From positions 1-34,610 of the forward strand of contig NZ_JAJAQC010000066.1 of assembly GCF_027604915.1 (NCBI RefSeq): a stretch of DNA of 34,610 nucleotides, given 5' to 3'. Shown here piece by piece: positions 5,266 through 30,405 of this stretch. The notes beneath the pieces were generated by a model that did no database searches, was not told the DNA's origin, and saw nothing but the letters and a program-made list of their open reading frames with translations. Source of the stretch: Streptomonospora mangrovi. GTDB lineage: Bacteria > Actinomycetota > Actinomycetes > Streptosporangiales > Streptosporangiaceae. Each line of letters opens with the position of its first letter. Positions within the stretch are counted from its first letter, which is position 1. The position numbers were made by a program, and so were the translations under genes.

Positions 5266-6090
5266 GTGAGCAGCAGCAACATCCTGTCCATCGCCGGCAG
5301 CGACCCCAGCGGCGGCGCCGGGATCCAGGCGGACCTCAAGACGTTCTCCGCCCTGGGCGGCTACGGCATGGCCGTGATCACCGCGCTCACCGCGCAGTCC
5401 ACCACGGGCGTCACCGGCGTGCACGAGGTGCCGGCGCACTTCGTCGCCGCCCAGTTGGAGACCCTGCTCACCGACGTGCGCGTGGACGCCGTCAAGATCG
5501 GCATGCTGGCCACCGCCGAGGTGGTCGAGGCCGTCGCCGACGCCCTGGACCGCCACGCGCCGCCGCACGTGGTGCTGGACCCGGTGATGGTCGCCAAGAG
5601 CGGCGACCGGCTGCTGGCGCCCGAGGCGATCGAGGCGGTGCGCACCCGACTGGTCCCCCGGGTCGACCTCATCACGCCCAACCTGCCCGAGGCCGCCGAA
5701 CTCCTCGGCGAGGAGGAGCGCCACGACCTGACGTCCATGCGCGAGCAGGCCGAGCGCCTGCTGGACCTGGGTGCCCGCCGGGTCCTGCTCAAGGGCGGCC
5801 ACCTGCACGGGGAGAGCAGCACCGACCTGCTGGTGGCCCCCGACGGCCGGGTGGCGACGTTCACCGCCGAGCGCGTGGCCACCCGCAACACCCACGGCAC
5901 CGGCTGCACCCTGTCCTCGGCGATCGCCGCCCTGCTGCCCCGCCGCCGCGACTACGACGACGCCGTGCGCGACGCCAAGGACTACCTCACCGAGGCGCTG
6001 CGCCGCGCCGACGACCTCGACGTGGGCCGGGGCAAGGGCCCCACGCACCACTTCCACGCCTGGTGGGAGGACACCGGGCGGCGCGGCTGA
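5266..6090 (+). CDS. thiD: Hydroxymethylpyrimidine / phosphomethylpyrimidine kinase
   Basis: Ribokinase-fold enzyme of 274 aa that phosphorylates HMP and HMP-P to HMP-PP for thiamine biosynthesis and salvage. Seen: N-terminal SIAGSDPSGGAGIQADLKTF (the HMP-binding signature), VDAVKIGML, VLDPVMVAKSG, ITPNLPEAAELL, VLLKGGH and the C-terminal anion-hole and catalytic-base motif NTHGTGCTLSSAIAA. The GTG at 5266 has GAAGGGA 5 bases upstream and gives the usual family length. No TPP riboswitch signature was found in the 137 bases after the kinase gene, so it may share the kinase transcript or have a weak promoter. It ends at a very strong hairpin. Confidence 0.93.
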   Translation: MSSSNILSIAGSDPSGGAGIQADLKTFSALGGYGMAVITALTAQSTTGVTGVHEVPAHFVAAQLETLLTDVRVDAVKIGMLATAEVVEAVADALDRHAPPHVVLDPVMVAKSGDRLLAPEAIEAVRTRLVPRVDLITPNLPEAAELLGEEERHDLTSMREQAERLLDLGARRVLLKGGHLHGESSTDLLVAPDGRVATFTAERVATRNTHGTGCTLSSAIAALLPRRRDYDDAVRDAKDYLTEALRRADDLDVGRGKGPTHHFHAWWEDTGRRG

Positions 6091-6140
6091 CACGGCCGCC
6101 GCCCGGGGCGGGGAGAACCGAGGACACGCGGGACAAGCGG

Positions 6141-6175
6141 AAGGGGGCGCCCCGCGCGGTGCGGGGCGCCCCCTT
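6141..6175. terminator. Bidirectional terminator, 15-bp perfect stem
   Basis: AAGGGGGCGCCCCGC (6141-6155) pairs perfectly with GCGGGGCGCCCCCTT (6161-6175) around a 5-base loop. The flanking A and T pairs give a short A/U end on both strands. It lies between the convergent thiD and symporter genes. Confidence 0.85.
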
Positions 6176-6225
6176 CAGAGGCCGCGCGCCGGCCGCCCAC
6201 CCCGGAGGGCCGGCGGCCGGCCCGG

Positions 6226-7644
6226 TCAGCTCGGCCGGACGTCCACGATCGTGGAGTCGGGGTTCTTCCAGTCGGGGTTGGCGAAGTACTTCTTGGTCTC
6301 GGCGACCACCACGCCCGACAGCAGCAGCAGCCCGACGAGGTTGGGCAGCGCCATCAGGCCGTTGGCGATGTCGCTGAAGGACCAGATCACGTCCAGCGGC
6401 ACGGTCGCGCCGATGTAGACCACCGCCACGAACACCAGGCGGAACGGGAACACGCCCTTGCGCCCGACGAGGAAGTCGATGCACCGCTCGCCGTAGTAGG
6501 ACCAGCCCACGATGGTGGTGAAGGCGAAGAACATCACCGAGATCGCCACGCCGTAGGTGCCCAGCGGGGCCAGCGCCGGCGAGATCGCGCCGAGGCCGTC
6601 GGACATCGCCTGGGCGGTGAGCAGCGAGCCGTCGTCGGTGGAGGTCTCCCAGGCGCCGGTGACGATGATGACCAGGCAGGTCATCGACACCACGATGATG
6701 GTGTCGATGAAGGTCTGGGTCATGGACACCATGGCCTGGCGCACCGGCTGGTCGGTCTTGGCCGAGGCGGCGGCGATACCGCCGGTGCCCAGGCCCGACT
6801 CGTTGGAGAAGATGCCGCGCGCCACGCCCTGCTGGATGGCGAACAGCAGCGCCGAGCCCAGCAGGCCGCCGGCGGCCGACCGGCCGGTGAACGCCTCGGT
6901 GAAGACCAGCGCCAGCGCGGCGGGCAGCTCGCCGATGTGGGCGATGAGCACCATCAGCGAGATGACGATGTAGAAGACGATCATCAGCGGCACGACCGCC
7001 GAGGCGAACCGGCCGATGCTCTTGATGCCGCCGATCACCACCAGGGCGGTGACCACCACGAGCACGATGCCCGAAATCCACGGCGGGATGGAGAACACGT
7101 CCTCCATCTGGAGGGCCACGGTGTTGGCCTGCGTGCCGTTGCCGATGCCGAAGGAGGCGATCGCGCCGAACACGGCGAACGCCCCGCCCAGCACCAGCCC
7201 CAGCCCGCCGGGCAGGCCGTAGCGGAGGTAGAACATCGGGCCGCCGCTCTGCTCGCCGCGGGCGTCGGGGCGGCGGTACTTCACGCCGAGCAGGGCCTCG
7301 CTGTACTTGGTGGCCATGCCCAGCAGCGCCACCAGCCACATCCAGAACAGCGCGCCGGGACCGCCGGCGGTGATCGCCAGCGCGGCGCCGGCGATGTTGC
7401 CGACACCGACCGTGGCCGCCAGCGCCGTGCTCAGCGCCTGGTAGTGGGAGATGTCGCCCTGGGCGCTACCGCCCTCGGTGCGCCGGACGAGCGCGAGCCA
7501 CAGGGCGTGGAAGAGGACCCGGAACTGGAGCAGGCGCAGCCGGATCGTCAGGTAGAGGCCGGTGAGCAGCAGCAGGGGGATGAGGACGAAGGGTCCCCAC
7601 ACCACTGAGGAGATAAGGCCCAGGATGTCCTGGAGTTGGGCCAT
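6226..7644 (-). CDS. Alanine/glycine:cation symporter (AGCS family)
   Basis: Polytopic inner-membrane protein of 472 aa that takes up alanine or glycine with Na+ (or H+). Many hydrophobic helices are visible (about 10-11). AGCS signatures present: GDISHYQALSTALAATVGVGNIAG, the GGPGALFWMW loop, ATKYSEALLGVKYR, NESGLGTGG followed by AAASAKTDQPVRQ, and GWSYYGERCIDFL. ATG 7644 has GGGAG 7 bases upstream and starts directly at the first helix region. It is transcribed alone toward the thiD terminator. The 217-base upstream region contains an imperfect CCCGCG/CGCGGG hairpin but no recognisable glycine riboswitch core. Confidence 0.93.
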   Translation of the reverse strand: MAQLQDILGLISSVVWGPFVLIPLLLLTGLYLTIRLRLLQFRVLFHALWLALVRRTEGGSAQGDISHYQALSTALAATVGVGNIAGAALAITAGGPGALFWMWLVALLGMATKYSEALLGVKYRRPDARGEQSGGPMFYLRYGLPGGLGLVLGGAFAVFGAIASFGIGNGTQANTVALQMEDVFSIPPWISGIVLVVVTALVVIGGIKSIGRFASAVVPLMIVFYIVISLMVLIAHIGELPAALALVFTEAFTGRSAAGGLLGSALLFAIQQGVARGIFSNESGLGTGGIAAASAKTDQPVRQAMVSMTQTFIDTIIVVSMTCLVIIVTGAWETSTDDGSLLTAQAMSDGLGAISPALAPLGTYGVAISVMFFAFTTIVGWSYYGERCIDFLVGRKGVFPFRLVFVAVVYIGATVPLDVIWSFSDIANGLMALPNLVGLLLLSGVVVAETKKYFANPDWKNPDSTIVDVRPS

Positions 7645-7861
7645 GGACGGACTCCCTGTCGGTCGGATCGGGGACGCCGGCCGGTGCCCGCGCCGCCGGG
7701 TGTGCGGGGCGTTGGGCGGGCGTGCCGGAGCCCAGCACAGCGGCGCGGGGTCCGGTTCGGCGCAGGGAAAGGGTCACACCCGCGCGTCACGCGGGCATCA
7801 CGTTTCCTCCACACGACGGTTGCGCCTGGTTTGCGTGTTACGCCTGAGTGAAAGGGGCGTT

Positions 7862-8110
7862 TCAGTCGGTGTCGGACTCCCCCGCCTGGGCGCGGGCCAG
7901 CGCCGCGACGGCCGCCGCCGCCTCGCGCGGGTCGGCTCCGCGCCCCACCGCGATCCCCACCAGGTAGGTGGTCACCGGCGCGGCGGGGCGCGCGATCGAG
8001 TGCGCGGCGTCCTTGGCGAGGTCCAGCACGCGGTCCACGTCGGACTTGCCGATCTCCTCGGACAGCTCCAGTTCGGCGCAGACCTGCTGCGCCCACTCGA
8101 CCAGGGTCAT
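7862..8110 (-). CDS. Small DUF6457-type protein
   Basis: 82-aa protein starting MTLVEWAQQVCAELEL, with AGGAG 5 bases before ATG 8110. An earlier in-frame start at 8143 lacks a ribosome site. The pattern (LxEW, then VDRVLDLAKDAAHSIARPAAPVTTYLVGIAVGRG, then an alanine-rich helix) matches what I know as DUF6457, usually found beside molybdenum-cofactor guanylyltransferase (mobA) or fused to it. Function is unknown; it is probably soluble and all-helical. No mobA gene is present next to it here, which is unusual for the family. It is divergent from the glycosyltransferase gene at 8305. Confidence 0.75.
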   Translation of the reverse strand: MTLVEWAQQVCAELELSEEIGKSDVDRVLDLAKDAAHSIARPAAPVTTYLVGIAVGRGADPREAAAAVAALARAQAGESDTD

Positions 8111-8240
8111 TGCGGCTCCTGTGGCTGGTGGGGACGAAAGCACGACAGGTGGCGATCCTACGACGGCCGGGCCGCGGCGGGCCGCCGAAAATGTCGCATT
8201 CCCGGTGGCGGGTCGTTGACCGCGCGTATGCCGCCGGTAC

Positions 8241-8268
8241 GAACCGGTTCATTCTCGCTGCTTAGGGT
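8241..8268 (+). promoter_or_regulatory. Candidate promoter with palindrome for the GT4 gene
   Basis: The perfect 10-bp palindrome GAACCGGTTC (8241-8250) sits where a -35 element would be relative to a TAGGGT -10-like hexamer (8263-8268). Transcription would start near 8275, about 30 bases before ATG 8305. Whether the palindrome is an operator or part of an ECF-type -35 element cannot be decided by eye. Confidence 0.35.
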
Positions 8269-8304
8269 CCCGACCAGGAGCCGTCCCGTGAACGGGAGAG
8301 CCGC

Positions 8305-21617: not shown

Positions 21618-23054
21618 ATGCGCAAGCACCGCAAGAGGTGGATCGCGCTCGCCGGTGCCGCCGCCGTCTCCGCCGCCGGCCTCGCGGCGGGCGGGGGCGC
21701 CGCGAGCGCCGACGAACAGCCGCTGGCCTGGCCGATGGTCCGCCAGTCCGTCTCCACCTACTCACTCGACGGGTTCGAGATCGGGTACCTGCCGCCCGGC
21801 CTGGAACGCCACGGAATCCACGCCAAGTCCACCGTCGGCCTCGACGGCGACCGCCGCTCCGAGATCGCCTGGGTCCAGGGGGTCGACGCCGTCTACGGCA
21901 GGGTCGGCGTGCTGCGCGGCGAGGACATCGCCGACGTGGACGACGTGCGCGCCGCCCGCTACGACCACCTGGAGGACTCCGAGCTGAAGCGCACCGAGGT
22001 CAACGGCGCCCGCGCCTACGCCTCGGAGAAGACCGGCGACGTGTTCTGGGTGCCCGAGCGCGGGGTCGCGGTGGTCGCCTACCTCCAGCCCGACCGGTGG
22101 GAGGCGGAGGAGCTGTTCGAGTTCGCCGAAGGCGTTCGGCCGCGTCCCAACCCGTGGGAGTCCCCGCAGCAGGAGGACGAGCCGGCCCAGGAGGAGGCCG
22201 CCCAGGAGGACGCCGGGCAGCAGGACACCGCCCAGGAGGACGCCGGGCAGGAGCCCGCCGCTGACGGCGCCGCTGAGGGGGACGGCGCGGACGCCGCCGA
22301 GCAGGAGCCCGCGGCCGGCCAGGAGGCGCAGTCCCCGCCCGGCGAGCCGCAGGAGCCCGCCGAGCCCGAGGCGCCCGCCGAGCCGGACCGGCCCAAGCCC
22401 GAGCAGCAGCCCGCCCAGGACGCCCCGGCCGACGCGCCGCAGGAGCAGCAGGAGCCGGCCCGGCCCAAGCCCGCCGCCCAACCCGCCGCGGAGATGCCCG
22501 CACCTGCCTCGGCGACCGACGGGCAGAAGCCGGTGGCCGAGGGCGCCGAGGAGCCCGCCGACGCCCCGGCCGACCAGGGCACCGACGCCAACGCCGACAC
22601 CAACACCGGCACCGGCGCCGGCACTGACACCGGAACCGACACCGCTCCGGCGGCGGCCGACTCCGGCGAGGTGCCCTCGGTGTCCGTCCTGGACGTGCGC
22701 ACCTGCCTGACCGAGGGCCTGCTGCCGCAGGACTCCCCGGTGCGCCCCGCCGACGCCGCCGTCGACGACGGCGCCGTGCTGCGGCTGTGGCAGGCCGCCG
22801 ACGACCAGACCCGCACGCAGCAGGCCGAGGAGTGCGCCACGCGCTTCCACATCGAGTCCTGGCAGATCGACCAGGTGATCTCCGAGGTCGAGGAGCGGCT
22901 CGCCGAGTCGGGCCTGGACCTGGCCACCGAGGCCGAGCCCGCCGCCGCCGGCCAGGACGCGGCGGCCGAGGACTCCGGCCGCGACACCGGCCTGGTCGCC
23001 ACCCTGGTCGACACCCTGGACTGGGCGCTGCCCGGCGCCTCGGCCCGGGAGTGA
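21618..23054 (+). CDS. Secreted protein with low-complexity Gln/Glu/Ala/Pro linker
   Basis: 478 aa of unknown function. A Sec signal peptide (KHRKRWIALAGAAAVSAAGLAAGGG, cleavage near ASA-DEQ) precedes a globular part (about 35-175: IGYLPPGLERHGIHAKSTVG, VFWVPERGVAVVAYLQPDRW). A 190-residue disordered stretch follows, dominated by QEDAGQ, PAE and TGTDT-type runs. The C-terminal part has two cysteines (VRTCLTEGLLP and QAEECATRFHIE) that could form a disulphide. No LPXTG motif or membrane anchor is seen. ATG 21618 has GAGAGG 7 bases upstream. The linker suggests it spans the cell wall, an inference. It is monocistronic with a strong terminator. Confidence 0.83.
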   Translation: MRKHRKRWIALAGAAAVSAAGLAAGGGAASADEQPLAWPMVRQSVSTYSLDGFEIGYLPPGLERHGIHAKSTVGLDGDRRSEIAWVQGVDAVYGRVGVLRGEDIADVDDVRAARYDHLEDSELKRTEVNGARAYASEKTGDVFWVPERGVAVVAYLQPDRWEAEELFEFAEGVRPRPNPWESPQQEDEPAQEEAAQEDAGQQDTAQEDAGQEPAADGAAEGDGADAAEQEPAAGQEAQSPPGEPQEPAEPEAPAEPDRPKPEQQPAQDAPADAPQEQQEPARPKPAAQPAAEMPAPASATDGQKPVAEGAEEPADAPADQGTDANADTNTGTGAGTDTGTDTAPAAADSGEVPSVSVLDVRTCLTEGLLPQDSPVRPADAAVDDGAVLRLWQAADDQTRTQQAEECATRFHIESWQIDQVISEVEERLAESGLDLATEAEPAAAGQDAAAEDSGRDTGLVATLVDTLDWALPGASARE

Positions 23055-23151: not shown

Positions 23152-23193
23152 GCCCTCAGCCCTCAGCCCTCAGCCCTCAGCCCTCAGCCCTCA
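23152..23193. repeat. Six perfect tandem copies of GCCCTCA
   Basis: The 7-mer GCCCTCA is repeated six times without a mismatch. On the minus strand each unit contains TGA, and because 7 is not a multiple of 3 the array places stops in all three frames. The fumarylacetoacetase gene ends inside it (TGA at 23184-23186). Confidence 0.9.
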
Positions 23194-24380
23194 GCCGGGC
23201 GCAGCGTGCCCGACACCTCGCCCAGGCGGATGGTGCCGCCGTTCATGCCGCGCGCCGTGGCCGTCAGGGTGACGGTGTCGCCGTCCTCCAGGAAGGTGCG
23301 CTCGCCCCCGCCGGGCAGCCGCACCGGCCGGGTGCCACCCCAGCTCAGCTCCAGCAGGCAGCCCTGCCGCCCCGGCTCGGCGCCCGAGACGGTGCCCGAG
23401 GCGTAGAGGTCGCCGGTGCGCAGCGAGGCGCCGTTGCTGGTGAGGTGGGCCAGCATCTGGTCGGGGGTCCAGTACATCGCGGAGTAGGGCGGGCGCGACA
23501 CCACGTGCCCGTTGATCGCCAGCGCCATCTCCAGGTCCAGCCCCCAGTCGGCCACCCGCGCCAGGTGCGGCAGCGGCTCGGGCCACTGCTCGCGCCCGGC
23601 GAACCGGGCCGCGCCCAGCGCGTCCAGCGGCACCACCCACGGCGAGACCGACGTGGCGAAGGACTTGCCCAGGAACGGCCCCAGCGGCACGTACTCCCAC
23701 GCCTGGATGTCGCGGGCGCTCCAGTCGTTGACCAGCACCACGCCGAACACGTGCTCGGCGAAGTCGCCCACGGGCACCGTGCGCCCCAGCGAGGTGGAGG
23801 TGCCCACCACGAACCCCAGTTCGGCCTCGGCGTCCACCCGGGTGCTCGGGCCGTACACCGGACCGCCACCGTCGGGCGACTGGCGCTGGCCCCGGGGCCG
23901 CACCACGCCGGTGCCCGACACCACGACCGTGCCGGCGCGCCCGTGGTAGGCCACGGGCAGGTGCCGCCAGTTGGGGTGCACCGGATCGTCGCCGGGCCGC
24001 AGGATCTGCCCGACGTTGGCGGCGTGCTCCAGGGAGGCGTAGAAGTCCACGTAGTCGGCGACCTCGAAGGGCCGCCGCAGCTCCACCTCGGCCAGCGGCA
24101 CCAGGTGCGGCTCGACCGCCGGGCGGGAGTCCGCCGAGGTCAGCATGCCGCTGATCTTGGCGCGGGTGGCGCGCCAGGCCGAGGAGCCGCGCGCCAGGAA
24201 GGGGTTGAGGGAGGGGGCCGCGAACTCCGCGCCGCCCAGCGCGCCGGCGAGGTCGAGCACGTGGTCGCCCACGCGCACCCCCACGCGCGGCGGCGACCCG
24301 GGCCGGGCGAACACGCCGTAGGGCAGGTTGTCGGCCCCGTATCCGGACTCGTCGGCGCCGGGCACCCATGTGGTCGTCAC
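23184..24380 (-). CDS. fahA: Fumarylacetoacetase
   Basis: 398 aa. It hydrolyses fumarylacetoacetate to fumarate and acetoacetate, the last step of tyrosine/homogentisate breakdown in the cytoplasm. Seen: N-terminal domain with GVRVGDHVLDLAG, then the catalytic FAH domain with metal-ligand region VDFYASLEHAANVG, VAYHGRAGTVVVSG, AEAELGFVVG, LVNDWSARDIQAWEYVPLGPF and FATSVSPWVVPLDAL. C-terminal SNGASLRTGDLYASGTVSG is also typical. GTG 24380 follows GAGGAGGAAC; the gap is short but no better start is near. It is the last gene of the minus-strand catabolic block, 38 bases after the unknown protein, and ends in the 7-bp repeat array. Confidence 0.95.
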   Translation of the reverse strand: MTTTWVPGADESGYGADNLPYGVFARPGSPPRVGVRVGDHVLDLAGALGGAEFAAPSLNPFLARGSSAWRATRAKISGMLTSADSRPAVEPHLVPLAEVELRRPFEVADYVDFYASLEHAANVGQILRPGDDPVHPNWRHLPVAYHGRAGTVVVSGTGVVRPRGQRQSPDGGGPVYGPSTRVDAEAELGFVVGTSTSLGRTVPVGDFAEHVFGVVLVNDWSARDIQAWEYVPLGPFLGKSFATSVSPWVVPLDALGAARFAGREQWPEPLPHLARVADWGLDLEMALAINGHVVSRPPYSAMYWTPDQMLAHLTSNGASLRTGDLYASGTVSGAEPGRQGCLLELSWGGTRPVRLPGGGERTFLEDGDTVTLTATARGMNGGTIRLGEVSGTLRPAEG

Positions 24381-24418: not shown

Positions 24419-25273
24419 TCACACTTCCCAGGAGCCCAGCAGGCCAAGCGCGGCGGCGTCGCGCACCGGGTCGCCGGTGCTGCACGAGGCGTAGCCGACC
24501 AGCAGTTCGCGGGTGCGGGCGGCGGTGGCGGGGTCCAGCCCGGCCGCCGCGCACGCCAGGCGGGCGGGGTCGGTGGCGGTGAGGGCGGGGGCCACGTCGT
24601 CGTAGCGGCCCTGGACCACGGCGGCGGTGGCCAGCAGCAGGTTGAGGTAGCCGTAGTGCGCGGCGCCGGTGGCGGGGTCGGCGCGACCCACCCCCCGGTG
24701 CAGGCCCGCCGCCGCGATGAAGGGGACGTCGCGCTCCACGCACGCCGTGATGAACGCGCCGGCCTCCTGAGCGCTGGGGAACTGGTCGGGGCGGGTGCCG
24801 CCGCAGCGCAGCTTGGCGCCCAGCGGCCGGGCGCCGCTGAGGATGTCCACGGCGTCCAGCCAGCCGGGGTCGCGGTCGAGTTCGAAGTAGACCACGCGGC
24901 CGGCCGCGCCGATGTCGCCGCTGCGGAACAGGTCGGCCACCAGGCGCAGGTCGTCGGGGCGGGCGCGGGTCTCGTAGCGGGCCACCCGCACGCGGGGGTC
25001 GGCGGCGGGCAGGGTGCCGGCCGCGCCGGCGTCGGTGTCCAGCACCAGGCCGACCTCGACGCGCTGGGTGCCGTCGAGGCGGGCCACCAGCTCACCCCAC
25101 CGGCTGGCCGGGCACACCAGGCGGTGGGAGAGCATGGGGTGGGCGACGATCCGGTCGGAGCGGTGCCGCTCGACGGCCTGCACCATGGGCAGCGCCGTGG
25201 GCGGGAACAGGCCCGCGTCGTCGATGAGCCCGCGCAGCAGGACCTGCGCCCCGGTGTCGGCCACGCGCACCAC
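24419..25273 (-). CDS. Uncharacterised protein between hmgA and fahA
   Basis: 284 aa, no signal or membrane segment. Recognisable blocks are LIDDAGLFPP (about 16-25), ELDRD (131-135), GAKLRCGGTRPDQFPS (152-167), FIAAAGLHRG (185-194) and HYGYLNLLLA (206-215). These recall a widespread hypothetical family with KLRTGG and TAGLHH motifs that I believe has a TIM-barrel-like fold; no reaction is known to me. GTG 25273 has GGAG 5 bases upstream. It sits exactly between homogentisate dioxygenase (125-base gap) and fumarylacetoacetase (38-base gap), so it should be co-expressed with both. It could supply maleylacetoacetate isomerase activity, or handle another intermediate; this is inference only. Confidence 0.85.
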   Translation of the reverse strand: MVRVADTGAQVLLRGLIDDAGLFPPTALPMVQAVERHRSDRIVAHPMLSHRLVCPASRWGELVARLDGTQRVEVGLVLDTDAGAAGTLPAADPRVRVARYETRARPDDLRLVADLFRSGDIGAAGRVVYFELDRDPGWLDAVDILSGARPLGAKLRCGGTRPDQFPSAQEAGAFITACVERDVPFIAAAGLHRGVGRADPATGAAHYGYLNLLLATAAVVQGRYDDVAPALTATDPARLACAAAGLDPATAARTRELLVGYASCSTGDPVRDAAALGLLGSWEV

Positions 25274-25398: not shown

Positions 25399-26568
25399 TC
25401 AGCGCGCCCAGGTCCAGGCGTAGCCGGGGTCCTCGCAGGCGCGCCCGGCCGGGCCCAGGTCCAGCGGGCGGAAGGTGTCGACCATGACGGCGGTCTCGCT
25501 GGTGCGCTCGGCGCCCAGGGCGGCCTCCACGGCGCCGGGCTGGGGGCCGTGGGTGAACCCGGCCGGGTGCAGCGACACCGATCCGACGCCGATGCCCGAC
25601 CCCTTGCGGGCCGCGTAGTCGCCGCCGACGTAGTACATGAACTCGTCGCTGTCGACGTTGTGGTGGTTGTAGGGGATCGGCACCGCGTCGGGGTGGAAGT
25701 CCAGCGGGCGCGGGCAGAAGGAGCACACCACGAACCCCGGCCCCTCGAACGTCTGGTGCACGGGCGGCGGGGCGTGGGTCCTCTTCACGATGGGCTCGAA
25801 GTCGGCGATGTTGAGGGCGTAGGGGTAGAGGCAGCCGTCCCAGCCGACCACGTCGAAGGGGTGGTGAGCGAAGGTCATGCGGGTCAGCCCGCCCCGGGTG
25901 CGCACGAGCACCGGGGTGGGGGCGTCGGCCTCGGCGCCCTCGGCCAGCAGCGGCTCGGCGGGGGCGCGCAGGTCGCGCTCGCTGTAGGGCGCGTGCTCCA
26001 GGAACTGCCCGTACTGGGAGAGGTAGCGGCGCGGCGGGCGGATGTGCCCGGACGCCTCGATCACCAGGGCGGTGGCCGCCCCCTGGACGACCCAGCGGTG
26101 GATGGTGCCGGTGGGCACGCACACGTAGTCCCCCTCACCGGCGTCGATGGCGCCGTAGCTGGACTCCAGGCGCACCGAGCCCGACTGCACGTAGACGGTC
26201 TCGTCGCCGACGGAGTTGCGGTACAGCGGGCTGGTCTCGTCCACGGCGGCGAAGCTGAGCCGCACGTCGCCGTTGGCGGCGAGCAGTTGGCGGCCGGTGA
26301 CCAGGTCGCCGCCGGCGGGCAGGTCGCCGGTGCGGAAGTGGCGCGGGGCCAGCGGCAGGTTGGGCTCGGCCGGGGCGGCGGCGCGGGGGTCGGGCACCGG
26401 TTCGGACTTCAGGATGGCGGTGGGCAGGTTGCGGTGGTAGAGCAGCGAGGAGTCCGAGGAGAACCCCTCCTCGCCCATCAGCTCCTCGGCGTAGAGGCCG
26501 CCGTCGGGGCGGCGGAAGACGATGTGCCGCTTGCGGGGCAGCTCCCCGACCGCGCGGTAGTAAGGCAT
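25399..26568 (-). CDS. hmgA: Homogentisate 1,2-dioxygenase
   Basis: 389 aa, non-haem Fe(II) enzyme opening the homogentisate ring to maleylacetoacetate. The iron ligands match the known H-x5-E pattern: His303 and Glu309 in YNHHNVDSDEFMYYVGG and His340 in GFTHGPQPG. Also seen: VYVQSGSVRLESSYGAI and YVCVPTGTIHRWVV (N-terminal cupin), HHPFDVVGWDGCLYPYALNI and FSSDSSLLYH. It is shorter than the roughly 430-450 aa proteobacterial and animal enzymes, as usual in actinobacteria. ATG 26568 follows AAGGAG by 5 bases; the 40 codons further upstream are Pro/Gly-rich and not conserved-looking. It is the central gene of the catabolic block. Confidence 0.95.
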   Translation of the reverse strand: MPYYRAVGELPRKRHIVFRRPDGGLYAEELMGEEGFSSDSSLLYHRNLPTAILKSEPVPDPRAAAPAEPNLPLAPRHFRTGDLPAGGDLVTGRQLLAANGDVRLSFAAVDETSPLYRNSVGDETVYVQSGSVRLESSYGAIDAGEGDYVCVPTGTIHRWVVQGAATALVIEASGHIRPPRRYLSQYGQFLEHAPYSERDLRAPAEPLLAEGAEADAPTPVLVRTRGGLTRMTFAHHPFDVVGWDGCLYPYALNIADFEPIVKRTHAPPPVHQTFEGPGFVVCSFCPRPLDFHPDAVPIPYNHHNVDSDEFMYYVGGDYAARKGSGIGVGSVSLHPAGFTHGPQPGAVEAALGAERTSETAVMVDTFRPLDLGPAGRACEDPGYAWTWAR

Positions 26569-26694: not shown

Positions 26695-28422
26695 TCAGCG
26701 GTCGGGCCCGGCCGGGCGGTGCGCCGCCGGCGCGCCGGGGGCGGGCGCGGGCGCCTCGGGCCGGTCCAGCCCGCAGGCGCGGCGGATCGCGGCGCGCACG
26801 GCGGCGGTGTCGCCGGCCGGCACGACGGCGCACAGGTGGGCGTCGGGGCGCACGACGTGGGCGGTGCCGGCGCAGCGCAGCGCCTCCGCCACGGCGCCGT
26901 CGGGGGTGTCCAGGTCGCTGAGCACCAGCACGGCCACGGGCGCGGGCAGCCCGGCGGTGGCGGCGGCGACAGGACCGGCCGCGGCGGCGTCGGGCACCAG
27001 CACGGTGAACCCGGGCCCCAGCAGCCGCCGCAGCCGGGTGGGCGCGCCGGCGCCGGGGTCGCGGCAGCTCGCGTCGGGGCAGATGACGCCGGGCACGGGT
27101 GGCCGGGGCCGACCCGGCTCGCCGGGCACGGGTTCGGCGCCGGGCAGCGGGGTGGTCAGCGGCGAGGCGGTGTACCAGTAGGGCTCGGCCAGCTTGCCGG
27201 AGTCGATGCGCTCGCGCGCGCGGGGGTCGGTGAGCGCGCGCTCCAGGGTCTGGCGGCGCAGCCGCGCCTCGTCCTCGCCGTGGGGCACCAGGAACCGCAT
27301 GGTCGCGCCGGTGACGCGCAAATTCTCCTGGGCGGCCGCCCGGCGCTCGGTGTGGTAGCTCTCCAGCAGGGCCTCGGCGGCCCCGGGGGCGGCCGCCTCG
27401 ACGCGGCGGGCCGCCGCCACCTTCCAGGCCAGGTTCTCGGCGTCGTGCACGCCGCTGTTGAGCCCGCGCGCGCCGAAGGGCGCGTAGAGGTGGGCGGCGT
27501 CGCCGGCCAGCAGCACCCGGCCGGCGCGCAGCCGGTCGGCGCAGCGCTGGTGGAACCGGTAGACCGAGGACCACACCACGGTGTAGGGCCGCTCCCCCAC
27601 GATGCGGCGGATGCGGCGGTCCAGTCCGCCCGAGGCGCGCTCGGCCTCGGCGTCGTAGTCCTCGGGGACCTGCCAGTCGATGCGCCAGGTGGAGTCGGGG
27701 CACTGGTGCACCAGCACCTGGCGGCCGGGGTTCCACTCGGGGTCGAAGTAGAACCGCCGCTCGTTGGGGAAGGGCAGGTCGGCGCGGATGTCGCAGATGA
27801 GGAACCGGTCGGCGAAGGAGCGGCCGGGAAAGCCGATGCCCAGCAGGTGGCGGACGGTGCTGCGCGGGCCGTCGGCGGCCACCAGGTGGCTGCCGCGCCA
27901 CTCGGCCGATCCGCCGGCGCCCTCGGTGGCGGCGGTGACCCCGGCGGTGTCCTGGGCCAGCCCGGTCACCCGGTGGCCGTGGACGAACCTGACCAGCGGG
28001 CTGGCCAGGGCGGCGCGCAGGAGTTCCCGCTCGACCCGGGCCTGGGAGATGTTGATCCAGGGCGGCAGCCGGCCGGGGGTGCCGGGGGTGTCGGGGAAGG
28101 TGACGGTGCGGACCTCGCGCCCCCGGTAGTAGGTGCGGGCCGTGGTCCAGGTGGTGCCCTCGGCCAGCAGCGGACCGGCCGCGCCGAGGCGGTCGAACAC
28201 GTCCAGGACGTCGCGCTGGAAGCAGATGGCCTTGGAGCCGGCCGCGCGGGCGGGGTCGGTGCGGGGGTCGGGTCCGGCCTCCAGCACGACCGAGGGCACC
28301 CCGGCGCGGGCCAGGGCGAGCGCGGCGCACAGGCCGACGGGTCCGCCGCCGGCGACGAGCACGGGGTCGGTGCGCGCGCCGTGGTCGTCGGCGGCGGGCG
28401 CGGGGGGCGGCACGGCTCGCAT
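26695..28422 (-). CDS. FAD-dependent aromatic monooxygenase (group A, MhpA/PheA-like)
   Basis: 575 aa flavoprotein hydroxylase using NAD(P)H and O2. Seen: GGGPVGL dinucleotide loop (about 25-31), the DG motif AADGPRSTVR (182-191), and the GD motif LLAGDAAHLYAPFGARGLNSG (GD at 307-308), followed by a C-terminal thioredoxin-like domain as in phenol and 3-(3-hydroxyphenyl)propionate hydroxylases. The substrate is unknown. Its place upstream of hmgA suggests it makes homogentisate or another diphenol feeding the same route, for example from a hydroxyphenylacetate. ATG 28422 has GGGAGG 4 bases upstream. It lies 33 bases after the MBL-fold gene and 126 bases before hmgA. Confidence 0.88.
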   Translation of the reverse strand: MRAVPPPAPAADDHGARTDPVLVAGGGPVGLCAALALARAGVPSVVLEAGPDPRTDPARAAGSKAICFQRDVLDVFDRLGAAGPLLAEGTTWTTARTYYRGREVRTVTFPDTPGTPGRLPPWINISQARVERELLRAALASPLVRFVHGHRVTGLAQDTAGVTAATEGAGGSAEWRGSHLVAADGPRSTVRHLLGIGFPGRSFADRFLICDIRADLPFPNERRFYFDPEWNPGRQVLVHQCPDSTWRIDWQVPEDYDAEAERASGGLDRRIRRIVGERPYTVVWSSVYRFHQRCADRLRAGRVLLAGDAAHLYAPFGARGLNSGVHDAENLAWKVAAARRVEAAAPGAAEALLESYHTERRAAAQENLRVTGATMRFLVPHGEDEARLRRQTLERALTDPRARERIDSGKLAEPYWYTASPLTTPLPGAEPVPGEPGRPRPPVPGVICPDASCRDPGAGAPTRLRRLLGPGFTVLVPDAAAAGPVAAATAGLPAPVAVLVLSDLDTPDGAVAEALRCAGTAHVVRPDAHLCAVVPAGDTAAVRAAIRRACGLDRPEAPAPAPGAPAAHRPAGPDR

Positions 28423-28455: not shown

Positions 28456-29415
28456 TCAGTCCTGGAGTTCGGCCCACACCCGCCGGTCGCGTTCGGCGGT
28501 CCAGACGGTGGGGCGCTCCACGCCCTCGTACTCCTCCCACAGCCGCGCGACGTCGAAGGGCAGGCAGTGCTCGAAGATGGGCCAGTGGCCGTAGCCGGGG
28601 GCCAGGGCGGCGTGGGCGGCGGCGAACGCCTCCTTGCGGGTGCCGCCGCGGCGGTAGACCGCGCCGACCTCGGTGCGCAGGGTGTCCAGGAACCCGCGGG
28701 TCTGGGCCACGGCGGCGTCGCAGGCGGCGCGCCCCCGGGCCACCGCGCCCCGGCCGCCCACCAGGGCCTCGGCGCCGAAGGCGGCGACCCGGTCCAGGGT
28801 GGTGGTGGCCCAGTCGTGGTGGAAGGCGTCGCCGGTGTAGAGGGCGGCCTCGGCCTCGACCAGGTCGCCGGCGAACAGGACTCTCCGCTGGGGCAGCCAG
28901 GCGACGATGTCGCCCTCGGTGTGGCCGCGCCCGCAGTACTGGAGGACGAGGTCGCCGCGGTCGCCGCCGAGGTCGATGGTGAGGCGGTCGGAGAAGGTGA
29001 GGGTGGGCCAGGTCAGGCCAGGGATGGAGGCGGGGTCGGCGAACAGGCGGGGCATGCGGGCGTACTCGCTGTCCCAGTCGGCCTGGCCGCGCTCGGCGAC
29101 CAGCGCGCGGGTGTTCTCGTGGGCCACGACGACGTCGGCGTCGAAGGCGCTGGCGCCCAGGACGCGCACGGCGTGGTAGTGGGACAGCACGAGGTAGCGC
29201 ACGGGCTTGTCGGTGTGCTCGCGCAGGGCGGCCAGCCAGGAGCGGGCGGCGGCGGGGGTGGCCAGCGCCTCGAAGCAGACGAGGAAGTCCTCGCCCTCGA
29301 TCGCGCCGACGTTGGGGTCGCCCTCGGCGGTGAGGGCGTACACGCCGTCGGCGAGCACCTCCAGGGTCTGCGGTTTCGCGTCGAGGTCGGCGGAACTGGC
29401 GAACGGCTTGCCCAT
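28456..29415 (-). CDS. MBL-fold protein with altered metal motif
   Basis: 319 aa. Metallo-beta-lactamase fold signatures: VLSHYHAVRVLG (79-84 region), GRGHTEGDIVAWLP (His165), FAGDLVE (Asp184), TGDAFHHDW. The canonical HxHxDH is here H79-Y-H81-A-V83-R84, so the Asp and His that hold the second metal are missing, and the last motif reads GGRG (220-223) rather than a GH pair. Enzyme activity, if any, probably uses one metal. ATG 29415 has GGGAG 8 bases upstream; the GTG at 29424 abuts that site. It is the first gene of the operon, divergent from the IclR regulator, and may hydrolyse a lactone or thioester intermediate. Confidence 0.85.
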   Translation of the reverse strand: MGKPFASSADLDAKPQTLEVLADGVYALTAEGDPNVGAIEGEDFLVCFEALATPAAARSWLAALREHTDKPVRYLVLSHYHAVRVLGASAFDADVVVAHENTRALVAERGQADWDSEYARMPRLFADPASIPGLTWPTLTFSDRLTIDLGGDRGDLVLQYCGRGHTEGDIVAWLPQRRVLFAGDLVEAEAALYTGDAFHHDWATTTLDRVAAFGAEALVGGRGAVARGRAACDAAVAQTRGFLDTLRTEVGAVYRRGGTRKEAFAAAHAALAPGYGHWPIFEHCLPFDVARLWEEYEGVERPTVWTAERDRRVWAELQD

Positions 29416-29433
29416 GCGGAGCACTCCCGGCGT

Positions 29434-29658: not shown

Positions 29659-30405
29659 ATGACCGAGGACACCACCGCCCCGGCCGGCGGCGGCACCGGG
29701 GCGCGCTCCGGTGCGGCGGGCACCCGCTCCCAGACCCTGGACCGGGGTATCCGCGCCCTGGAGCTGCTGCACCGGGCGGGCCGGCCGATGAGCATCGCCG
29801 AACTCGCGCGCGGCCTGGAGGTGCACCGCTCGATCATCTACCGGATCCTGCGCACGCTGGAGGACCACCGCCTGGTGGCCCGCACCCCCGAGGGCGCCTA
29901 CGAACTGGGCCTGGGGCTGCCGGTGCTGGCGCGGGGGGTGTCCCACGACCTCCAGTCGGCGGCGCTGCCGGTGCTGTCGGCGCTGGCCGACGAGGTCGCC
30001 ATGACGGCGTTCCTGGTGGTGCCCAGCGGCGCCGAGGCGATCACGCTCACCAGCGTCGAGCCGCGGCTGGCGCCGGCGCACGTGGCCCACGCGCCGGGCG
30101 TGCGGCACCCGCTGGACCGGGGGGCGCCGGGGATCGCGCTGCTGGCGGCGCAGGCGCCGCAGCCCCACGAGCGCCCCGAGGTCGCCCAGGCCCGCGCGCG
30201 GGGGTGGGCCTACTCACGCGACGAGGTGCTGGCGGGGATGTCGTCGGTCGCGGCGCCGGTTCCCGGGCCGCCGGCGCGGCCGGGCGCGGCGGCGGTGGCG
30301 GTCATCTACGTGGAGGGCGCGCACGGCGACGACGACACCGACCGGGCGGCGCTGGCCGAGCGGGTGCGGGCGGCGGCAAAGGAAATCGCGGCTGATTTGC
30401 CATGA
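29659..30405 (+). CDS. IclR-family transcriptional regulator
   Basis: 248 aa. N-terminal winged helix-turn-helix (about 23-80): LDRGIRALELLHRAGRPMSIAELARGLEVHRSIIYRILRTLE. A C-terminal IclR effector domain follows (LQSAALPVLSALADEVAMTAFLVV, GVRHPLDRGAPGIALLAA, RGWAYSRDEVLAGMSSVAAPV). It likely controls the divergent aromatic catabolic block in response to an aromatic acid, the usual role of IclR proteins beside homogentisate or protocatechuate genes. ATG 29659 follows GAGGAGG; the frame stays open far upstream but those codons are antisense to other genes. It is monocistronic. Confidence 0.92.
   Translation: MTEDTTAPAGGGTGARSGAAGTRSQTLDRGIRALELLHRAGRPMSIAELARGLEVHRSIIYRILRTLEDHRLVARTPEGAYELGLGLPVLARGVSHDLQSAALPVLSALADEVAMTAFLVVPSGAEAITLTSVEPRLAPAHVAHAPGVRHPLDRGAPGIALLAAQAPQPHERPEVAQARARGWAYSRDEVLAGMSSVAAPVPGPPARPGAAAVAVIYVEGAHGDDDTDRAALAERVRAAAKEIAADLP

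Follow-up and report, generated by a model that had tools for sequence, protein, structure and literature searches.

Genes at the locus

The window analysed here is a stretch of 34,610 nucleotides from Streptomonospora mangrovi. On its minus strand lies a run of five genes that encode, in the direction of transcription, a SoxH-related metallo-beta-lactamase-fold hydrolase (MBL, 28456..29424), an FAD-dependent monooxygenase of the PRK08132 subfamily (26695..28422), a divergent two-cupin homogentisate 1,2-dioxygenase (HGD, 25399..26568), a protein of 284 amino acids (24419..25273) and fumarylacetoacetase (FAH, 23184..24380). We refer to the 284-amino-acid protein and its relatives as family X, and to the gene as X. 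A divergent IclR-type gene on the plus strand (29659..30405; IclR_C and HTH_IclR over their cut-offs), upstream of the five and pointing away from them, is likely the operon's regulator. The MBL protein matches PF00753 over its cut-off and scores 87 bits, below the cut-off, against TIGR04559; the monooxygenase scores 458 bits against NF006002, whose cut-off is 416.

The two genes that flank X were assigned as follows. FAH has a GTG start with GAGGAGG upstream, matches PF01557 and PF09298, scores 405 bits against TIGR01266 (cut-off, 375) and matches fumarylacetoacetases in the PDB with a best E of 2.4e-105; by these sequence matches it is a bona fide fumarylacetoacetase. HGD scores 63 bits against TIGR01015, far from the cut-off of 511, but its HgmA_N and HgmA_C domains are over their cut-offs and it aligns with solved HGDs (PDB 3zds and 1ey2), also over the stretch that holds the iron ligands. 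The HGD that adjoins X in most loci is of this distinct type, far under the hmgA equivalog cut-off, and on plasmids the annotation of the X-linked HGD varies between cupin protein and homogentisate 1,2-dioxygenase.

An earlier note on this DNA had described a 284-amino-acid gene between those for HGD and FAH and had quoted three motifs from its product. Our reading of the open reading frames recovered the gene, with a GTG start and a TGA stop, and all three motifs (GAKLRCGG, AAAGLHRG and HYGYLN). X lies 125 bp downstream of HGD and is followed after 38 bp by FAH. Against the copy of a congeneric genome (L039), which is 94% identical, its dN/dS is 0.27; because this value lies among those of the other four genes of the operon in this pair (FAH, 0.10; HGD, 0.24; monooxygenase, 0.28; MBL, 0.13), X is maintained as a protein. 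X in the window is a real gene under purifying selection. We list it as a candidate maleylacetoacetate isomerase with a predicted TIM barrel on the basis of this ratio, of the neighbours of its relatives and of its structure model.

The tyrosine framing given to the operon by the earlier note does not suit this organism, in which the best HPPD match is partial and far too weak (40.5 bits; cut-off, 277). Homogentisate is therefore more likely to come here from the operon's FAD monooxygenase than from tyrosine, and this enzyme is the probable source of the hydroquinone substrate or homogentisate. MBL and the monooxygenase are both present in 10 of the first set of 40 X loci and in 6 of a set of 80.

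Two other features lie at the downstream end of the operon. A perfect 7-bp tandem repeat, GCCCTCA in 6.4 copies (23152-23196), spans the FAH stop codon. Convergent with FAH on the plus strand is an open reading frame of 478 amino acids (21618-23054) whose N-terminus is signal-like and whose long middle part is rich in Ala, Pro, Glu and Gln.

Sequence searches with family X

The description of the window protein as uncharacterised held up: nothing exceeded the Pfam cut-offs, nothing in NCBIfam matched at E<=1 and no PDB sequence matched at E<=10. An alignment of 24 of 40 sequences (A1; the window and 23 of the 39 extracted relatives) found no credible family in Pfam or PDB searches. The best Pfam match in these searches, Thr_synth_N (13.8 bits; cut-off, 25), was rejected. 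None of the known isomerase families matches X. The window protein has no match at E<=1 to PF11716 (MDMPI_N), nor is that family among the seven that Pfam lists for the A1 sequences at E<=0.5, and TIGR01262 (GstZ/MaiA) does not match it among the NCBIfam models at E<=1. We inspected 11 of 18 plasmid matches, two of them without annotated features, and X is annotated as 'hypothetical protein' in all nine annotated stretches. At the level of titles and abstract openings, we found no literature on the family.

At least 563 stretches encoding relatives of X were confirmed in GTDB contigs, of which the best 80 were kept. They were found without use of neighbouring genes and selected by two peptide patterns, LxDDA..FPP and K.T.GLH; the conservation of residues within the patterns is biased in this set because the loci were selected by them, and E130, K152, R154 and C263 (numbered as below) fall outside both. 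Two further alignments (A2 and A3) comprise the window and 64 of the 80 loci. One relative (L140) comes from a record titled Eremiobacterota. Another (L158), on a contig titled Acidobacteria, comes from a genome assigned to the phylum of the Actinomycetota sample, and we do not count it as a second phylum.

X accompanies fumarylacetoacetase

The earlier note had made its proposal depend on the family tracking hmgA and fahA, and it does so. Among the best 80 GTDB relatives both HGD and FAH are present at 68 loci, FAH alone at five, HGD alone at one and neither at six, so that a link to one or both, as in the window operon, is found for 74 of the 80. At 66 loci the two genes flank X. A co-directional FAH starts no more than 400 bp downstream of X at 70, and HGD has the same orientation as X at 39 and the reverse at 30; because FAH follows X so regularly while the orientation of HGD varies, we take the link to be tightest to FAH. 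In the first set of 40 loci FAH follows X in 34, and five lack FAH (L043, L049, L051, L053 and L061).

A corresponding picture came from 296 genomes sampled from the phylum. X is present in 16, FAH in 34 (at more than 250 bits, a threshold that we set; 29 of the 34 pass the curated cut-off) and both in 15, a co-occurrence with a Fisher p of 4e-15 when kinship among the genomes is ignored. In the sole X genome without FAH (G307), X is at the edge of a short contig. Sequence distances of the three proteins are also correlated, most strongly for X and FAH (r = 0.81; X and HGD, 0.72; FAH and HGD, 0.75; species kinship ignored), over the 86 of 120 loci in which all three genes are present, HGD has more than 40% identity and the FAH stretch exceeds 900 bp.

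Annotated operons illustrate the arrangement. In Tsukamurella tyrosinosolvens the order is hppD-HGD-X-fahA, with 4-bp overlaps both between HGD and X and between X and fahA. On plasmids of Streptomyces sp. Alt3 and NBC_01213 the order is HGD-X-fahA-CoA transferase A/B, a gene set suggestive of a route to fumarate and acetoacetyl-CoA. In the cyanobacterium Kovacikia minuta X and FAH overlap by 4 bp, and HGD and an HPPD-like gene adjoin. HGD of the classical type also adjoins X (G124; 631 bits). In one genome (G317) X shares a contig with MBL and the monooxygenase, and a second contig carries HGD and FAH. In a Sphaerisporangium MAG (L087, 5992-8013) X and FAH share one open frame. We dropped the argument from fusion, since this is the only case among 120 loci and the frame holds an internal GTG with a Shine-Dalgarno-like stretch.

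Other isomerases, and genomes with FAH alone

The earlier note had predicted that GstZ would be absent and had seen no GST-like or DinB-like isomerase in the operon block. The second statement holds for the maiA and MDMPI_N profiles, because the window's own genome has no maiA match and its seven MDMPI_N-family genes are all off the window's contig. As to the first, maiA is over its cut-off in none of the 296 actinobacterial genomes (best, 89 bits; cut-off, 171) and in none of 50 X-bearing records, which are 49 genomes drawn from the 80 GTDB loci and one plasmid record, together 50 of the 56 initially chosen. GST-like matches below the cut-off occur in 52 of the 296 genomes, in only two of the 34 FAH genomes among them and in three of the 50 X-bearing records. 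The premise of GstZ absence is thus right for this sample of the phylum. On two Streptomyces plasmids a protein with a maleylpyruvate isomerase N-terminal domain is encoded about 4 kb or less from X-fahA (L212, 1006-1662; L231, 2376-3032); PF11716 was confirmed for the second, and the first is so named by annotation.

X is absent from 19 of the 34 FAH genomes, eight of which belong to one genus (g35). In 11 of these 19 we examined the 20 open reading frames near FAH as delimited by a rough gene caller: none encodes a GST or MDMPI protein, 16 match other families and four match none. In such genomes, therefore, either the step dispenses with X or another enzyme acts. Maleylacetoacetate also isomerises non-enzymatically. 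Not every organism with HGD and FAH requires X, and there may be another route, enzymatic or spontaneous. Bare HGD-FAH pairs occur among these genomes; in one of them (L161 in G273, 5310-8282) the two genes are directly adjacent, an isomerase candidate is lacking, and a PF06983 (3-dmu-9_3-mt) protein is encoded next to them. Rhodococcus ruber Chol-4 grows on homogentisate, and its description names hmgABC in the text and only hmgA and hmgB in a figure legend (PMC6498646).

A predicted barrel with conserved strand ends

We modelled the window protein and a typical member of the family, the Rhodococcus qingshengii homolog (L143), whose residue numbering is used throughout. AlphaFold gave mean confidences (pLDDT) of 93.1 and 95.8, respectively, and the predicted fold of X is a beta/alpha (TIM) barrel. 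Foldseek returned generic TIM barrels only, for the typical member with a best E of 1.3e-4 and a TM of 0.40, and no match at E<=1e-3 for the window model. The window model is an alternating strand/helix barrel and not a GST fold.

Ten residues are kept in nearly all of 132 sequences: D13 (131), E99 (129), E130 (132), K152 (129), R154 (131), K184 (124), T186 (125), H190 (128), N209 (130) and C263 (126). In the predicted secondary-structure string most of these residues are on or just after strands 1, 4, 5, 6, 7 and 8, where the active site of a TIM barrel usually lies. Strand 6 of the family reads K-x-R-x-G-G and strand 7 reads F-K-x-T-A-G, and the near-invariant C263 (Cys264 in the window protein) is placed by the model at the end of strand 8. 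Of the three motifs quoted by the earlier note, two are departures of the window's clade from the family consensus: AAAGLHRG and HYGYLN stand where the family has KATAGLHHAVR and HHGFLN.

The window protein keeps E130, K152, R154, H190 and C263, and departs from the family at K184 (Ile), T186 (Ala) and H205 (Tyr). Loss of K184 is seen in eight of the 132 sequences, on one branch with an SH-aLRT of 98 in a tree of 61 of them; judged from this tree, the window copy is a member of a derived clade that lost K184. There are two candidates for a Schiff-base lysine, K152 on strand 6, kept in the window, and K184 on strand 7, lost in it. A DERA-like origin, prompted by the likeness of strands 6 and 7 to the KTSTG and KPAGG motifs of the relatives' own DERA, is unsupported by profile comparison: hhalign of X against groups of 18 DERA, three LacD-like and seven FbaB-like sequences from relatives, sorted by eye and shallow as templates, gave probabilities of 0.2%, 0.6% and 0.4%.

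Proposed reaction and alternatives

From these genomes we infer, with a probability of roughly 0.55, that X is a maleylacetoacetate isomerase that works without a thiol cofactor, perhaps with the strand-8 cysteine as its nucleophile. X would turn the maleylacetoacetate made by HGD into the fumarylacetoacetate used by FAH without glutathione. The assignment of the reaction is drawn from genomic context; the role of the cysteine is drawn from its conservation, from the window clade without K184 and from the established chemistry of isomerases that use thiol catalysis. In our picture, strands 6 and 7 would supply the residues that bind the carboxylates and the diketone of the substrate at the barrel's C-terminal mouth, namely K152 and R154 and, in typical members, also K184, T186 and H190. 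C263 would then add to the cis double bond, the bond would rotate, and the cysteine would leave by elimination to give fumarylacetoacetate, so that a thiol of the protein itself would play the part that the glutathione sulfur has in GstZ. A Schiff base at K152 would be the chief alternative chemistry. If the window copy is active, K184 is non-essential, which favours the cysteine or K152. A stronger formulation, to which we give even odds, is that X is an unrecognised TIM-barrel isomerase of maleylacetoacetate that needs no thiol cofactor and uses a catalytic cysteine. It would supply the gene so far lacking for glutathione-independent isomerisation in many actinobacteria and in at least one cyanobacterium, and would add to GstZ and the DinB-type enzymes a third, unrelated answer to this kind of step.

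The earlier note had already put forward the isomerase interpretation as a possibility, and it is partly supported: the linkage to hmgA and fahA and the absence of GstZ speak for it; the 19 FAH genomes without X and the seven MDMPI_N genes elsewhere in the window's genome count against it. These same two observations, and the MDMPI_N-type proteins near X-fahA on two Streptomyces plasmids, could also mean that a mycothiol-dependent MDMPI/DinB-type enzyme encoded elsewhere carries out the isomerisation and that X serves the pathway differently, for instance by removing a toxic side-product or protecting FAH. We consider this rather unlikely, as the gene fixed beside FAH is X (70 of 80 loci) and the 8-11 kb annotated at the operons of Tsukamurella, Pseudonocardia, Rhodococcus and two Streptomyces include no MDMPI protein. 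X is also present in Kovacikia, a cyanobacterium, which makes glutathione and is not known to make mycothiol. The predicted barrel itself invites a further reading, in which X is a lyase or aldolase-like enzyme with a Schiff-base lysine that cleaves or bypasses the ring-fission product: class I aldolases are among the generic Foldseek matches, and K152 and K184 resemble the two lysine motifs of the relatives' DERA, which have catalytic roles. Such a function looks improbable, given that the FAH adjoining X in most loci would then be redundant, that the window clade is without K184 and that the hhalign comparisons, with their shallow templates, stayed below 1%.

The remaining alternatives concern which neighbour X serves. 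HGD is also present in 69 of the 80 loci, and X might act upstream, on homogentisate or its quinone and not on maleylacetoacetate; this is quite improbable in view of the pairing with FAH over HGD (five FAH-only loci against one HGD-only locus), the varying orientation of HGD (39 against 30) beside an FAH that follows X in 70, and three Streptomyces plasmid loci at which X-fahA has no annotated HGD within 4-5 kb in an incomplete gene table. That X is a partner of FAH and no enzyme of the step, with isomerisation being spontaneous, would suit the genomes that have HGD and FAH without X, and the frame that X and FAH share in one of 120 loci, a MAG, could be cited for it. However, that frame contains the internal GTG with its Shine-Dalgarno-like stretch, and the conserved charged and cysteine residues at the barrel's strand ends look catalytic, which makes this reading very improbable.

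Relation to known enzymes

GstZ/MaiA has the GST fold, and MDMPI is a DinB-like helical bundle. X would share with GstZ/MaiA (TIGR01262) its reaction and its place between HGD and FAH, and differs in having no sequence match to it, a predicted TIM barrel and no proposed thiol cofactor. Maleate isomerase, of the Asp/Glu racemase superfamily, carries out a cofactor-free cis-trans isomerisation by an enzyme cysteine; this chemistry is like that proposed for X, whereas the fold differs. MDMPI_N proteins (PF11716) perform the same type of cis-trans isomerisation in actinobacteria (PMC6498646), but X has no Pfam match and a predicted TIM barrel, and MDMPI acts in the gentisate and not the homogentisate pathway. 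Class I aldolases (DeoC/DERA, PF01791; DHDPS/HypD) resemble X in the barrel, in conserved lysines on neighbouring strands and in the Foldseek matches; they differ in that X shows no profile similarity to them, has an extra near-invariant Cys and is found in another operon context.

Some Gram-positive bacteria degrade homogentisate with no identifiable maleylacetoacetate isomerase, and biochemical reports of 1985 reportedly described a glutathione-independent activity of this kind in Gram-positive bacteria. A family of hundreds of members at this step allows a direct test of gene against reaction. The assignment of X would improve the annotation of tyrosine and aromatic pathways in actinobacteria and, if it is true, a cysteine of the protein would be seen to replace the thiol cofactor; the novelty would be in the enzyme family and not in the pathway. 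In Bacillus thuringiensis, one study states, the genes for maleylacetoacetate isomerisation could not be directly identified from genome data (PMC6193087). X would not explain this case, because the operon as described there, hppD, fahA and hmgA, lists no such gene (PMC6193087).

Copies that have lost conserved residues

C263 is lost in six copies of X (L040-L043, L050 and L066). Five genomes with such a copy (G001, G002, G004, G005 and G013) have a second copy in which the cysteine is kept. The sixth copy (L066, in G095) has lost C263, K152 and H190, lies in an HGD-X-FAH operon and is the only copy that we found in its genome. Across these sequences the pattern fits a catalytic cysteine and does not prove one.

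Four congeneric genomes (G004, G001, G002 and G005) carry two copies each. One set (L070-L073) is of typical X in the full MBL-monooxygenase-HGD-X-FAH operon. The other (L040-L043) is window-like, with K184 and C263 lost; L041 and L042 have another FAH beside this copy, L040 has a partial FAH match there and L043 has none. Beside the window-like copy in L043, which belongs to G005, is an open reading frame whose N-terminus resembles, by eye, that of the 478-amino-acid frame in the window.
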